Source: Kaistia granuli DSM 23481
GTDB taxonomy: Bacteria > Pseudomonadota > Alphaproteobacteria > Rhizobiales > Kaistiaceae
Assembly (NCBI RefSeq): GCF_000380505.1
Contig: NZ_AQYH01000003.1
Span: 186,001-250,000, forward strand
Length of the DNA: 64,000 nucleotides
Direction: 5' to 3'
The notes under the pieces were generated by a model. That model saw only the letters and a list, made by a program, of their open reading frames with translations, searched no databases and was not told the origin of the DNA. Numbering within the stretch: position 1 is the first letter of the stretch; each line of letters begins with the position of its first letter. The position numbers and the translations under genes were made by a program. Below, piece after piece: positions 4,595-11,978 of the stretch.

Positions 4595-4902
4595 GGGGCT
4601 CTGGGCCAACCCTCTGCCAGGGCTGAATGCAGGCAGAACGCTTGAACGCAGCAGGATGAAGTCGGGCTTCCGGTAGGTTCCGCAGGGGCGACGGGCCCTG
4701 CCGCCGATGTTCCGCGCAATTGACGCAATTCGGCCATGGTTCGTTAACCGGCCGGAAAGGCGCGGTCGGCTGAATGCCATCTCATGTCCGGTGGGCTCCG
4801 CGCGACAGCGCAAAGGCCCGTTTGGACCCGAAAGGCGTCGGCACCGGTCGAGAACGATCGACAAATACCGCGGTTGCTGCTATCGGATTAGGCGAGATGG
4901 GG
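4595..4902. other. Intergenic region upstream of rlpA
   Basis: About 300 bases without a supported gene. A TTGACG hexamer begins near 4718 and could be part of a promoter for rlpA, but no good -10 sequence follows at the ideal distance. An in-frame upstream ATG at 4774 would add 43 residues to RlpA, but these would bury the lipoprotein signal peptide, so I treat this stretch as non-coding. Confidence 0.4.
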
Positions 4903-6246
4903 ATGTCCAAAATTCAGATTCTGAGCCTTTTGCGCTCGGAAGCGCCGCAGGGCAGGGTTTTGCTGAGGGTCGCGACCGCCGTCGCAGCTGCCGCTCTGCT
5001 TGCCTCCTGCGCCACCGCCCCGTCCAAGCCTGCCAAGCGCAGCAAGGAATATTTCTCCGAGAAGGAATACGGCGTCAAAGCCAGCCCCCGTGTCGTTCAG
5101 CACGGCCAGGCCGTGCCGCAGGGCGGCGGCCGCTACATGGTCGGCAAACCCTATACGGTCAGGGGCCGGGTCTACACGCCGCGTGAGAACCCGCGCTACA
5201 AGGCTGTCGGCCTCGCTTCCTGGTACGGTTCCGCCTTCCATGGCCGCTATACGGCCAATGGCGAGGTCTACGATATGGACGGACTGTCGGCCGCCCATCC
5301 GACGATGCCGCTGCCGAGCTATGCCCGCGTTACCAACACGCGCAACGGCCGCTCCGTGGTCGTCCGCGTCAACGATCGCGGTCCCTATGCCAGCGACCGC
5401 GTCATCGATCTTTCGTCGAAGACGGCCGATGTGCTCGACATGAAGCACCACGGCACCGCCAAGGTGAAGGTCGAATATGTCGGCCCGGCCCGCATGGAAG
5501 GGCATGACCAGAAGATGCTGATGGCGACCTACAAGGGGCCCGGCAGCAGTGTTTCCGGCGGCACCATGCTGGCCCTGCAGGCGCCGACGATGCGCGCGCC
5601 GACCGCGAGCCCGGCCGTTATGATGGCGGCGCTGGCGCCGTTGCCCCGCTCGCGTCCCGAGATGGACTATGGCGGCAACGCCTATGATCCGGCGCTCGCC
5701 GTCTATGACGCGCAGCCGCAGGCGCGCGTCGTCGCCGAGGCGCGTCCGGCGCCGGCCGGCAGCAATTACGGCGAGCGTTCGCTCGGCACCTACACGATTT
5801 CCGATCCCGTCGGCTACGACCAGGGCGTCACGCCCGCCTCGGCCACCGAGGACGACTACTATCCGCCGGTTCCCCGTTCGGCCCGCTCGTCCTATGCGGC
5901 CGATCCGACCGCCTCGCCGGCGCAGCGCGCCGTCGCCGAGATGGCGTCGGGCCATGGCAACCGTCTGCAGGCGGCGCTCGATGCCGCCGTTGCCCGCGCA
6001 GCGGCGGAGCGCAGCACCGACGTTCCGGTGATCCAGCTCGGCGTCTTCTCGAACAGCGCCAACGCGGAAACGCTGGCAGGCCGCTTTGCCGATCTCGGCC
6101 GCGTCACCACGACCGAGATTGCGGTCGGCGGCAGGACGATGCAATCGGTGCGCCTGGTCATCGCGGATCCGGCAACGACGGGCGAGGCCGCCATCGCCCA
6201 GGTCCGGGCGGCGGGTCTCTCTGGCGCCTATCTGGTCAACCACTGA
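4903..6246 (+). CDS. rlpA: RlpA-family septal lipoprotein with SPOR domain
   Basis: A 447-residue lipoprotein. The signal peptide ends at a lipobox LLASC with C36. A double-psi beta-barrel (RlpA) domain covers roughly residues 100-195 (GLASWYGSAFHGRYTANGE, then VRVNDRGPY and VIDLSSKTADVL). A Pro/Ala-rich linker of about 170 residues follows. The last 75 residues form a SPOR domain (IQLGVFSNSANAETLAGRF), which binds denuded peptidoglycan at the septum. RlpA proteins cut glycan strands lacking stem peptides in some species. AGGCGAG lies 6 bases before the ATG at 4903. An ATG at 4897 is also possible. Confidence 0.93.
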   Translation: MSKIQILSLLRSEAPQGRVLLRVATAVAAAALLASCATAPSKPAKRSKEYFSEKEYGVKASPRVVQHGQAVPQGGGRYMVGKPYTVRGRVYTPRENPRYKAVGLASWYGSAFHGRYTANGEVYDMDGLSAAHPTMPLPSYARVTNTRNGRSVVVRVNDRGPYASDRVIDLSSKTADVLDMKHHGTAKVKVEYVGPARMEGHDQKMLMATYKGPGSSVSGGTMLALQAPTMRAPTASPAVMMAALAPLPRSRPEMDYGGNAYDPALAVYDAQPQARVVAEARPAPAGSNYGERSLGTYTISDPVGYDQGVTPASATEDDYYPPVPRSARSSYAADPTASPAQRAVAEMASGHGNRLQAALDAAVARAAAERSTDVPVIQLGVFSNSANAETLAGRFADLGRVTTTEIAVGGRTMQSVRLVIADPATTGEAAIAQVRAAGLSGAYLVNH

Positions 6247-6334: not shown

Positions 6335-7522
6335 ATGATGTCTCGCTGGTTTCCGCTGCGATTGCTGATCGCGCCGGCCGTGCTCACGGTCCTCGGCGCG
6401 ACGGCGGAACTGCGCGCGGTCGCCGCCACGCCGTATGAGAGCAAGGCCACCAGCGCAATCCTCGTCGACGTCGATTCCGGCACCATCCTCTACCGCAAGG
6501 CCGCAGACGCGGCGTTCCAGCCCGCGGCCATGGCCAAGATGATGACCATGGTCGTCGTGTTCGACGCCATCCAGTCCGGCAAGCTCAAGCTCGACGACAG
6601 TTTTCCGGTGAGCGAGCATGCCTGGCGGACAGGCGGCGCGCCGTCCGGCAGCGCCACCATGTTCGCCGCGCTTAAATCCTCGATCCCCGTCGCCGACCTG
6701 CTGCGCGGCGCCATCGTCCAGGCCGGCAACGACGCCTGCATCATCCTGGCCGAGGGCATCGCCGGCTCCGAGGGCGCCTTTGTCGACATGATGAACCGCA
6801 AGGCGGCGGAGCTCGGCCTGACCGGCTCCCATTTCACCAATGTCTCGGGCCTGACCGATCCGGCCCAGAAGGTCACCGCCGACGACCTATACAAGATCGC
6901 CGATCACATCATTCACACCTATCCGGACCTCTACAAGATCTACGCGGAGCCGGACTTCACCTGGAACAAGATCTACCAGCGCAACCGCAATCCGCTGCTG
7001 TCCGCCGGGATCGGCGTCGACGGGCTCTCGACCGGCTTCACCCCGGAATCGGGCTATGGGCTCACCGCGTCGGCGATCCGCGACGGCCATCGCATGACGC
7101 TGGTGGTGAGCGGACTTCCGACGGACAAGGAGCGTGCCGAGGAAGCGCGCAAGCTTTTCGAATGGGGCAATACCGCCTTCGAGCGCCTTCGCTTCTTTGA
7201 TCGCGGCGAGGCGGTGGCCCAGGCACGCGTCTATGGCGGCACGACGCGGGGCGTGGGGCTCGCGACCGAAGAGCCGCTCGACATCCTGCTCCTGCGCGGC
7301 AACCGCGAACGGATCCGCGCCCGGGTCGTCTATGACGGCCCCCTTGTCGCTCCGGTCCGGCAGGGCGCGCAGGTCGGCGTCGTTCGCGTCTCGGTCGGCG
7401 ACGTCCAGGTGCTGGAAAAGCCGGTCTACACGATGGCGGCCATCGACAAGGGATCGATGGACCAGCGAGCGCTCGATGCGGTCCAGCAATTGCTGATCGG
7501 CTGGTTGCCGCAATGGAAATGA
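6335..7522 (+). CDS. PBP5-type D-alanyl-D-alanine carboxypeptidase homologue, probably catalytically dead
   Basis: A 395-residue protein with a signal peptide (VAA near residue 31), a peptidase S11 fold and a C-terminal PBP5-type beta domain. Active members trim the terminal D-Ala from peptidoglycan using three motifs: SxxK, SxN and KTG. Here all three are altered. The first is AMAK (A65 for the nucleophilic serine), the second is AGN (A130 for serine) and the third is STG (S232 for lysine). The surrounding family residues are kept (SEHAWRTGGAPSGSATMFA, GNDACIILAEGIAG, FTWNKIYQRNRNPLL). There is no frameshift. It overlaps tmk by 10 bases. I infer a non-catalytic cell-wall protein. Confidence 0.9.
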   Translation: MMSRWFPLRLLIAPAVLTVLGATAELRAVAATPYESKATSAILVDVDSGTILYRKAADAAFQPAAMAKMMTMVVVFDAIQSGKLKLDDSFPVSEHAWRTGGAPSGSATMFAALKSSIPVADLLRGAIVQAGNDACIILAEGIAGSEGAFVDMMNRKAAELGLTGSHFTNVSGLTDPAQKVTADDLYKIADHIIHTYPDLYKIYAEPDFTWNKIYQRNRNPLLSAGIGVDGLSTGFTPESGYGLTASAIRDGHRMTLVVSGLPTDKERAEEARKLFEWGNTAFERLRFFDRGEAVAQARVYGGTTRGVGLATEEPLDILLLRGNRERIRARVVYDGPLVAPVRQGAQVGVVRVSVGDVQVLEKPVYTMAAIDKGSMDQRALDAVQQLLIGWLPQWK

Positions 7523-8175
7523 CGTCAAGATTGCCGGGCCGTTTCATCACCTTCGAAGGCGGGGAGGGATCGGGCAAATCCACCCAGATCCGCCGCCTCG
7601 CGGAGAGGCTCCAGGCCGGAGGCCGCACCGTCGTCGTGACGCGCGAGCCGGGCGGCACCGAGCTCGCCGAGGCGATCCGCGGCTTCATTCTCTCCGGCGC
7701 CGCCGAACCGCTCGGCCCGGAAGCCGAGACGATGCTGTTCGCGGCGGCGCGAGCCGATCACGTCGACCGCGTCATCCGACCGGCGCTCGAGCGCGGCAAC
7801 TGGGTCCTCTGCGACCGCTTCATCGACTCGACCCGCGCCTATCAGGGTTCGGACGGCGTCGACGCGCATCTGCTCGACAGCCTCGAGAAGATCGCCATCG
7901 GCGAGGCGCGCCCCGATCTGACCCTCATCCTCGACCTTCCCGTCGAGATCGGTCTCGACCGGGCGGCGCGGCGGCGCAGCGGCGAGACCGGCCCCGCCGA
8001 CCGCTTCGAGCGCGAAACCATCGAGCGGCATCAGCGCCGCCGGGACCTATTCCTGGCAATCGCGGCGCGCGAGCCCGAGCGGTGTCTCGTCATTGACGCC
8101 AACCAGAGCCAGGACCAGGTCGCCGACGCGATCTGGCAGGCCGTCCTGCAACGTGTGAACGAAAGCGTGAATTGA
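7513..8175 (+). CDS. tmk: Thymidylate kinase
   Basis: A 220-residue cytosolic kinase that phosphorylates dTMP to dTDP with ATP. The P loop is FEGGEGSGKST, the DRX motif is CDRFIDSTRAYQG, and the LID region holds RRSGETGPADRFE. The length is normal for the family. Translation may start at 7513 or at an ATG at 7519 that forms an ATGA overlap with the upstream stop. It lies two bases before holB, the usual tmk-holB pairing of nucleotide supply with the replicase clamp loader. Confidence 0.97.
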   Translation: MEMTSRLPGRFITFEGGEGSGKSTQIRRLAERLQAGGRTVVVTREPGGTELAEAIRGFILSGAAEPLGPEAETMLFAAARADHVDRVIRPALERGNWVLCDRFIDSTRAYQGSDGVDAHLLDSLEKIAIGEARPDLTLILDLPVEIGLDRAARRRSGETGPADRFERETIERHQRRRDLFLAIAAREPERCLVIDANQSQDQVADAIWQAVLQRVNESVN

Positions 8176-8177
8176 GT

Positions 8178-9248
8178 ATGGCCGGACCCGACGTCACGCG
8201 CCCCGATGCCATCGAAGGCTGGCCGCTGCCGGAAGAGCAGACCGAGTGGTATGGCGATCCCGCCGTCGAACGGCTTCTGGTCGAAGCCTATCGCGGCGGC
8301 CGCATGCATCATGGCTGGATGATCGGCGGACCGCGCGGCATCGGCAAGGCGACGCTCGCCTATCGCTTCGCCCGGTTCGCGCTGACCTATCCGGACCCGG
8401 CCAGCGCGCCGGATGCCGAGACGCTGGCCGTGCCCGCCACGTCGAAGGCCGCGGCCAAGATCGCGGCGCGATCGCATCCGAACATCCTGACGCTGTCGCG
8501 CCCCTGGGACGAGCAGGGCAAGCGCTTCAAGGCGAGCCTGACCATCGACGAGATTCGCCGGACCATTCCGTTCTTCGGTTCGACGGCGGGCGAGGCGGGA
8601 TGGCGGATCGCCATCGTCGATTCGGCCGACGACATGAACGCCAATGCGGCCAACGCGCTGCTGAAGATCCTGGAGGAGCCGCCGCGGCGGTCGCTCTTCC
8701 TCGTCATCTCGCACGCACCCGGCCGGCTGTTGCCGACCATCCGCTCGCGCTGCCGGCGCCTCGATCTGGCGCCGCTGACCCCGTCGGCCATCGAGGGCGC
8801 GCTCGCGCAGCGTGATGACGGTCCCGCCGATATCCGCCGTTTCGCCGCCGAGGCCGGGCAGGGCAGCCTGCGCAAGGCGATCGGTTTCCTCGACGAGGAC
8901 GCCGCCGCCATCGGCCGCGCCTTTTCACGCGTGGTGGCGCGCTTTCCGCAACTGGACGGGCAGGGCGCCCACGCACTCGGCGATCTCGTCGCCCAGCGCG
9001 GCGCCGACGAAGCCTTCGCCAATTTCACCGACCTCGTCTTCGCCTGGCTCAGCCGCCGCGCCCGTGGCGAGGCCGAACCCGACGGTGCCGCGATACCCCA
9101 AAGCGTTGCAGCGACCCCGCTTGCGACTTGGGCGGAGGTGTGGGAAAAGCTCCGTCAGTCTTCGGCGGATGTCGAGGCGCTCAATCTCGACCGCAAACAG
9201 TTTGTGCTCACGACCATGAACATCCTCGCTCGCGCGACCCGAATGTGA
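8178..9248 (+). CDS. holB: DNA polymerase III delta' subunit (clamp loader)
   Basis: A 356-residue AAA+ protein. It shows a P-loop-like GGPRGIGKATLA, a sensor/arginine-finger stretch within NALLKILEEPP and SHAPGRLLPTIRSRCRR, and an acidic SADDMNANAANALL. These match the delta' subunit that helps load the beta clamp on primed DNA. The insertion DAETLAVPATSKAAAKIAARSHP is typical of the alphaproteobacterial form. The ATG at 8178 follows the tmk stop by two bases. A GTG at 8176 is out of frame. The gap of 69 bases to metG still allows co-transcription. Confidence 0.93.
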   Translation: MAGPDVTRPDAIEGWPLPEEQTEWYGDPAVERLLVEAYRGGRMHHGWMIGGPRGIGKATLAYRFARFALTYPDPASAPDAETLAVPATSKAAAKIAARSHPNILTLSRPWDEQGKRFKASLTIDEIRRTIPFFGSTAGEAGWRIAIVDSADDMNANAANALLKILEEPPRRSLFLVISHAPGRLLPTIRSRCRRLDLAPLTPSAIEGALAQRDDGPADIRRFAAEAGQGSLRKAIGFLDEDAAAIGRAFSRVVARFPQLDGQGAHALGDLVAQRGADEAFANFTDLVFAWLSRRARGEAEPDGAAIPQSVAATPLATWAEVWEKLRQSSADVEALNLDRKQFVLTTMNILARATRM

Positions 9249-10934: not shown

Positions 10935-11978
10935 CTATCCCGGTCCCAGGATCTCGTTGATCCGCTGCACCGTCACCACGGTCTCCGATTCACGCGTGCG
11001 GCGCAGGGCGAAATCCTGGCCGGCCGCCGCGATCTCGCGGCAGGCCTGATCGTGCGCGCGGCACCATTCCACCTTCTCGATCACATCCGACAGATCGGCC
11101 GCCACAGGGACGAAATGCGTCCACGGCACGAACTCGTCGTAGAACCACTGCTTGAAACCGACCGGCGACGCCACCTTCAGCACGCAGCAGCCGAGCAGCA
11201 GCCGGGTGTAGAGATTACCCCAGCTGGTGCTGGACCCGTCGATGTCGATGGCGAACTTGATGTCGATCCAGCGCGACGGGGCTACGTGATTGCCGAGAAT
11301 GCCATGCGCCTCCATCGCTTCCCGCGTCGCGTGGTGGGCGCGATCGCGTTCCGGCACGATCAGCCGCACGTCGACGTCATCGATCCCGCGCAGGGCCAGG
11401 CAAAGCCGAACCCGCTGCTTCAGGTTGGGATCGTCAATGTCCATCTGCTCGGTCGTCGTGTCGCCATGCCCCGAAATGTCGCCGCGCCAGAGCAGGGTGT
11501 CCTGCCGGCTCGCCCACTGGCCCGGGCGGTTCTCCGCCAGCGTCCGGTAGGGCTGATAATATTCCGGCGTCATGAAGCCGGGATCCGGCACCAGGATCGA
11601 TTGCGGCTCGTTGGTGGCGTAGGCGAGCTCGTTGGGAATGTTGTCGCCGCCATCCGAGACGTTGGCGGTCGCCGAGGTCACGCCGGCGGCGGTGCGGCTC
11701 ATGATCCGGACGAAGGCGGGCAGGCGCCGCCACATCATCTCGAACTGGAAGGCGTCGCGCGCCATCAGGTCGCGATCGAGATTGACGTGCAGCTGGTTGC
11801 CGATCCGCTGGAAATCGATCTGGAAGCGATGCCGTCCCGGCTCGCTGGCCTGGTTGATGACGATCGAGGCGGGGGCGCCGGCGATGGTTGGCAATTCGGC
11901 GGCCAGCTTCCGCACCAGAGCCTCTTCCTTGAAGCGGCGCGGCAGAAGTCGATAGAGGGTACGCTGGCTGAATTGCAC
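10935..11978 (-). CDS. Glycosyltransferase family 90 (CAP10-like) protein
   Basis: A 347-residue protein related to the CAP10/LpsA family of glycosyltransferases (Pfam Glyco_transf_90), which in bacteria act on lipopolysaccharide and in eukaryotes include POGLUT enzymes. Supporting stretches are LLWRGDISG, IDIKFAIDIDGSSTSWGNL, RLLLGCCVLKVAS and QWFYDEFVPWTHFVPV, which resemble the sugar-nucleotide binding core of the family. No signal peptide is seen. The start is a GTG at 11978 with GGGGA upstream. It interrupts an otherwise plus-strand housekeeping run. The acceptor is unknown. Confidence 0.82.
   Translation of the reverse strand: MQFSQRTLYRLLPRRFKEEALVRKLAAELPTIAGAPASIVINQASEPGRHRFQIDFQRIGNQLHVNLDRDLMARDAFQFEMMWRRLPAFVRIMSRTAAGVTSATANVSDGGDNIPNELAYATNEPQSILVPDPGFMTPEYYQPYRTLAENRPGQWASRQDTLLWRGDISGHGDTTTEQMDIDDPNLKQRVRLCLALRGIDDVDVRLIVPERDRAHHATREAMEAHGILGNHVAPSRWIDIKFAIDIDGSSTSWGNLYTRLLLGCCVLKVASPVGFKQWFYDEFVPWTHFVPVAADLSDVIEKVEWCRAHDQACREIAAAGQDFALRRTRESETVVTVQRINEILGPG

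Follow-up and report, generated by a model that had tools for sequence, protein, structure and literature searches.

The window analysed here, a stretch of 64,000 nucleotides from the genome of Kaistia granuli DSM 23481, carries on its + strand (6335..7522) a gene, dac, which was defined by its open reading frame (ORF) and Pfam matches and encodes a 395 aa homologue of the PBP5-type S11 peptidases, probably a pseudo-DD-carboxypeptidase. The protein begins with a probable signal peptide of about residues 1-32 (6335..6430, +), recognized by eye. This is followed by a Peptidase_S11 domain at residues 30-260 (6422..7114, +; PF00768), whose score of 230.8 bits against a curated Pfam cut-off of 27.6 makes the protein an S11 homologue, and by a PBP5_C domain at residues 282-371 (7178..7447, +; PF07943), which scores 54.5 bits against a cut-off of 21.2. 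The C-terminal segment in the alignment (7460..7519, +) could be an amphipathic membrane anchor, given what we take to be its resemblance to PBP5, and the C-terminal ends are alike in relatives with broken and with intact catalytic motifs. Upstream on the same strand lies rlpA (4774..6246, +), recognized by its ORF and its DPBB_1 and SPOR matches, with a true start that is uncertain within the ORF. Downstream, again on the same strand, are tmk (7513..8175, +) and holB, for DNA polymerase III delta prime (8172..9248, +), both identified by ORF and domain match, and metG, named from a syntenic Sinorhizobium meliloti record. The TGA stop codon of dac at 7520-7522 overlaps the candidate ATG starts of tmk at 7513 or 7519, and the overlap (7513-7522) suggests translational coupling. 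A sequence-only reading of this DNA had described a full-length PBP5-type S11 homologue in its usual place between rlpA and tmk, and the ORF, the Pfam matches and the synteny bear that description out.

The orthologous place in S. meliloti (CP090106.1) has the order rlpA-dac-tmk-holB-metG-tatD and, as in Kaistia, broken motifs (SLAK/LAN/ATG), in a gene annotated as D-alanyl-D-alanine carboxypeptidase. The S. meliloti protein differs in that Ser65 is kept and only the SxN and KTG motifs are broken, and on the trees described below its loss is a separate one. In that record metG and tatD adjoin each other, unlike in the Kaistia window, where an opposite-strand ORF of 347 aa (10935-11978, -) lies between them. 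The record itself (L281, 3.7 Mb) is titled plasmid pSymB and, with tmk, holB and metG on it, looks like a chromosome.

The Kaistia protein shares with the PBP5-type D,D-carboxypeptidases of Escherichia coli (DacA, DacC and DacD) the S11 and PBP5_C architecture, an apparent signal peptide and a C-terminal tail, but all three of its catalytic motifs are destroyed. In the alignment, AMAK replaces the SxxK motif (6527..6538, +), such that Ala65 stands for the nucleophile serine and Lys68 is retained; AGN replaces SxN (6722..6730, +), with Ala130 and a retained Asn132; and STG replaces KTG (7028..7036, +), with Ser232 followed by the retained Thr233 and Gly234. Among the features expected of an active PBP5-type D,D-carboxypeptidase, PBP5_C is present, and SxxK, SxN and KTG are all missing. 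The nearest solved chain, 4k91_A (E 7.5e-76), is annotated as a D-ala-D-ala-carboxypeptidase and reads SLTK/SGN/KTG when aligned to the Kaistia protein, a likeness of fold that is judged by sequence. Seven NCBIfam equivalog models (DacA, DacC-like, DacD) match the Kaistia protein and none does so above its cut-off (264.4 bits against 610 for the best), a result that covers the Kaistia protein alone and so cannot separate dead from active members. Substitution of alanine for the catalytic serine abolished the activity of two Acinetobacter PBP5/6-type enzymes, according to the accessible part of PMC13059705. Catalysis by the S11 mechanism is, with high confidence, predicted to be excluded for the Kaistia dac protein.

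The destruction of all three motifs had been read from this single sequence, and it is real, with the motifs intact in all 88 orthologues from other orders, but it is no peculiarity of one strain. The change is fixed throughout the genus Kaistia, where dac reads A-M-(A/V)-K/AGN/STG in 14 of 14 genomes (two with AMVK), and the same three changes are present in the sister genus, in Prosthecomicrobium pneumaticum (G027), at 62% identity. A sequencing error at the motif codons, one of the ways in which the reading could have failed, is rejected by the recurrence of the changes in all 14 Kaistia genomes and P. pneumaticum. Truncated copies in close relatives, another such way, were not found, save in the fragmented assembly G008 (about 720 contigs), where dac is divided over two frames, with all three altered motifs present in its joined pieces. 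The motifs are mostly intact in the other genera of Kaistia's family; partial losses occur in genus g2 (SMAK/SAN/TTG, NMAK/SAN/TTG and SMAK/AGN/ITG). The order of the three motif changes in Kaistia is not resolvable, as all fall on one stem branch, and the earlier claim that they were independent events cannot be shown in this lineage.

Conservation of the remainder of the protein was scored at 44 positions within residues 30-299 with a conservation of at least 93% among 224 intact sequences, a departure being a clade consensus below 50%. In the Kaistia-Prosthecomicrobium clade, represented by 14 distinct rows, three of the 44 depart, namely S65, S130 and K232, and the other 41 are kept. All three departures would land by chance on the seven motif positions with a probability of 0.0026, which becomes 0.017 if the clade is considered to have been chosen for one of them. 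Departures number 1 to 9 in the other broken clades, with the family f50 the highest at 9, and 0 to 2 in six intact control clades. The replacing residues are themselves held in place: across 14 distinct codon rows (13 Kaistia and Prosthecomicrobium), the codons for A65 (GCC/GCG), A130 (GCC/GCG/GCT) and S232 (TCG/TCC) show only synonymous variation. Under one codon model with the same 13 taxa, omega is 0.105 for dac vs 0.095 for the neighbouring tmk, values that are averages, with synonymous sites near-saturated in some groups, and that are uninformative on the Kaistia stem branch. The corresponding values for dac (and tmk) in other broken groups are 0.064 (0.046) in f50, 0.068 (0.067) in Mesorhizobium and 0.097 (0.105) in f34, and omega of dac in five intact groups ranges from 0.059 to 0.128. 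Averaged over the clade, these estimates show purifying selection on Kaistia dac to be as strong as that on tmk. The combination that marks a pseudoenzyme, catalytic residues lost and other conserved residues under purifying selection, is what is found. Neutral decay had been called unlikely from the sequence, and the low omega, together with the confinement of change to the three catalytic residues, sustains that judgment.

The change can be placed on the Kaistia-Prosthecomicrobium stem, where a search for the affected clade leads, but the sequence-only reading missed a wider breakage. Among distinct Hyphomicrobiales sequences, 105 of 241 are broken and 136 intact, a biased frequency since the sequences were picked by similarity rank and not by motif, vs none of 88 in other alphaproteobacterial orders. 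The named loci are the best 80 of 566. From 199 matching Hyphomicrobiales genomes, those given as loci and 100 fetched additionally were read, as were 88 of the 110 matching genomes of other orders. Rows L001, L002, L003, L017, L018, L019, L031 and L032 (a duplicate, paralogues and split pieces) were excluded, along with duplicates and L277, an unlinked second copy. In G360, the genome of that last row, the copy at the rlpA-tmk locus is broken (L264, SLAK/SAN/ETG), and the second copy, at 43% identity, is intact (SLAK/SGN/KTG); neither rlpA nor tmk was found beside the latter.

The broken sequences have lost K232 in 97 cases, S130 in 80, T233 in 41, S65 in 26, K68 in 9 and N132 in 8, with one motif hit in 12 sequences, two in 72 and all three in 21. 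Ser65 is retained in 79/105 and Lys68 in 96/105, and broken proteins that keep Ser65, other than those of Kaistia-like clades, could still perform some chemistry. Broken forms include those of Mesorhizobium and Aminobacter (e.g., SMAK/AAN/AVG), Rhizobium and Sinorhizobium, S. meliloti among them (SLAK/LAN/ATG), and Phyllobacterium (ALAK/SAN/GTG), and further broken lineages are Falsochrobactrum, Ancylobacter (MTG) and several other families. The family f34 and Hansschlegelia (rows L150, L151 and L109) keep the serine and KTG and read, for example, SMAT/SGG/KTG, with SxN changed to SGG or SGT and with Thr in place of Lys68, which we take to be the general base. Many soil Hyphomicrobiales, Methylobacterium among them, have intact dac motifs.

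With the motif columns left out, two trees require a minimum of 10 (219 rows) and 12 (329 rows) changes between intact and broken. In the 329-row tree, 12 clades are broken throughout, one of them uniting f50 with Kaistia; this is a quick tree with an arbitrary root that does not recover Hyphomicrobiales as one clade, such that its count is to be read only as about ten or more. The dac gene appears to have lost catalytic residues in roughly ten or more separate Hyphomicrobiales clades. Its setting varies little: tmk is directly downstream in 216 of 219 Hyphomicrobiales rows, and the last 90 rows (88 from other orders and two Hyphomicrobiales) have a same-strand tmk in 85 and rlpA in 78. The rlpA-dac-tmk locus occurs widely across Alphaproteobacteria. 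A dac match at E 1e-50 was absent from 30 of 229 genomes of the order, including every listed genome of f4, f17 and f45, where the protein is either lost or merely diverged, and no dac orthologue above 60% identity was found in the plasmid records searched.

A second clade with triple loss is the family f50, genus g58, with five genomes of 6.5-8.9 Mb that read AMAK/AAN/(V,S,A)TG (rows L126-L130 / L172, L232, L237, L246, L249). Unlike Kaistia, f50 departs at six conserved positions besides the motif ones. The two are joined with a support of 90 in the 329-row dac tree and weakly (75/68) in a mixture-model tree. This union is rejected by Tmk and HolB of the same loci (p-AU 8.4e-7), and a grouping of Kaistia with the other members of its family is acceptable on the dac data (p-AU 0.85); a single shared origin of the triple losses is disfavoured by both results, and two independent losses are therefore the likelier history. 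Transfer of the dac gene alone is compatible with the same data.

The Kaistia granuli genome has two other S11 proteins, both with intact motifs. One (L002, SLTK/SAN/KTG) has a SPOR domain and the other (L003, SITK/SAN/KTG) has a long Lys/Ala-rich tail; they share Peptidase_S11 with the dac protein and differ from it in their motifs and in having no PBP5_C. These paralogues probably act as the serine D,D-carboxypeptidases. Kaistia does not compensate through additional S11 copies, as it has three, like most intact genomes tested; S11 matches number 3 to 5 per genome in the 38 genomes tested, and broken Rhizobiaceae have 4-5. Compensation by S13 carboxypeptidases is ruled out by their absence from the four Kaistia genomes tested, and the sole near-full-length S13 match among 23 genomes tested is in G014. 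There is also no sign that RlpA catalysis was lost in step: its His and Asp, which we presume to be the catalytic residues, are kept in 30/30 broken rows, those of the 105 in which a sequence pattern found RlpA.

Kaistia dac is probably a recurrently inactivated, selectively retained pseudoenzyme with a non-catalytic role in the cell wall, because its catalytic residues are gone while the family core is kept, omega is as low as that of tmk, the gene has kept its place and the loss has happened repeatedly. Selection for a non-catalytic role had been proposed at the outset, and it is supported here as the best reading; the functions suggested with it, binding of D-Ala-D-Ala or scaffolding beside RlpA, are candidates. 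The ancestral PBP5-type protein of the rlpA-tmk locus would have combined cutting with a second, non-catalytic job. Hyphomicrobiales would have been able to leave the cutting to the intact S11 paralogues, the SPOR protein and the Lys/Ala-tailed one. The catalytic residues would then have been free to go, or would have been selected away, as the non-catalytic job held the rest fixed.

The strongest alternative is that the dead protein is a decoy, which binds pentapeptide stems and shields them from active S11 paralogues or transpeptidases, such that trimming is regulated by competition. On the groove side the clade retains Lys68, Asn132, Thr233, Gly234 and the stretches near W97 and Q215-N219, and both paralogues from which stems would be shielded are intact; yet with the SxN serine and the KTG lysine gone, binding of the D-Ala carboxylate should weaken, on our understanding of the enzymology. 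A decoy is a serious contender that we nevertheless consider unlikely. It is improbable that the losses reflect escape from beta-lactams, by which soil bacteria would gain from an abundant PBP5-type protein that cannot be acylated and that continues in a structural role. The loss does recur in a soil- and plant-associated order, with all 88 sequences read from other orders intact, and the changes strike the acylation machinery, but most broken lineages retain Ser65 and Lys68, the intact paralogues would still be targets, and many soil Hyphomicrobiales have intact dac motifs.

Translational coupling to the essential tmk might preserve the dac frame with no regard to the protein, as the overlapping stop and start codons and the near-constant position of tmk would allow. 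Coupling needs an open frame rather than particular amino acids, whereas the low omega and the 41 kept positions indicate that the protein itself is selected, and this explanation is very improbable. Still less credible is altered catalysis, a hydrolysis or transfer by a different mechanism that might use the retained Lys68, Asn132, Thr233 and Gly234: residue 65 is replaced by neither serine nor cysteine, and Cys135 is also present in intact relatives and is therefore not a new nucleophile of the Kaistia clade. Relaxed decay towards loss, to which the partial losses in g2 and the split G008 copy might point, is the least probable of all and is largely refuted for Kaistia by an omega equal to that of tmk, fixation of the replacing residues, the kept length and place of the gene, and the fragmentation of the G008 assembly.

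For the retained pseudoenzyme, a mechanism can be suggested only tentatively: a membrane-tethered periplasmic protein might use its old substrate groove on stem peptides to position or regulate wall-remodelling partners, whether as a stem-peptide binder or as a scaffold. The lytic transglycosylase RlpA is the first candidate, because it is encoded next to dac in most loci read and was recovered together with it in the same Agrobacterium screen; this link rests on adjacency and the joint screen match, and the greater confidence expressed in the pseudoenzyme itself does not extend to it. No non-catalytic role is known for E. coli PBP5. The literature searched, which left out most subscription papers and preprints, held no report of an S11 pseudoenzyme. 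The iRhoms, pseudoproteases of a family unrelated to S11, offer a parallel in that catalytic residues are lost and the fold kept; a new regulatory role is attributed to iRhoms.

Three genomes of the Rhizobiaceae genus g160 have a dac that reads SLAK/NAN/GLG and a telomere resolvase, which we take to be typical of Agrobacterium, and they are assigned to that genus on this assumption. By way of these genomes, the Agrobacterium gene Atu1499, or dac, is probably an orthologue of Kaistia dac with broken motifs. In A. tumefaciens, insertions in the "DD-carboxypeptidase (Atu1499)" and in "RlpA (Atu1500)" are detrimental in combination with a loss of the muropeptide transporter YejABEF, a synthetic effect described in the accessible part of PMC9790009. 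A "DD-carboxypeptidase dac" is synthetically essential in Agrobacterium mutants of group-3 LD-transpeptidases, and dac was recovered again in one strain left with just one LD-transpeptidase, in the available text of PMC11527210, which names the gene only as dac. The two Agrobacterium screens support a role in the cell wall indirectly, and their transposon phenotypes could be due to a polar effect on tmk and holB. A dac gene is also among four putative S. meliloti DD-carboxypeptidases in the accessible part of PMC7327166, and it is likely the rlpA-tmk gene.

A broader reading is plausible, if short of probable: throughout Alphaproteobacteria the rlpA-tmk PBP5-type protein may have had a hidden second, non-catalytic role in the wall, which the LD-transpeptidase-reliant Hyphomicrobiales would have unmasked by discarding catalysis about ten times. 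If this is true, the "DD-carboxypeptidase" of standard model rhizobia is misnamed, and an active orthologue should still perform the hidden job once it is made catalytically dead. Very probably, no D,D-carboxypeptidase is encoded by the gene that is so annotated in rhizobia and Kaistia, which would change how models of peptidoglycan maturation and transposon screens in the polar-growing Hyphomicrobiales are read. The order would also supply about ten natural replicates of a protein that was retained after the removal of its catalysis, such that a non-catalytic role of PBP5-type proteins becomes directly testable.
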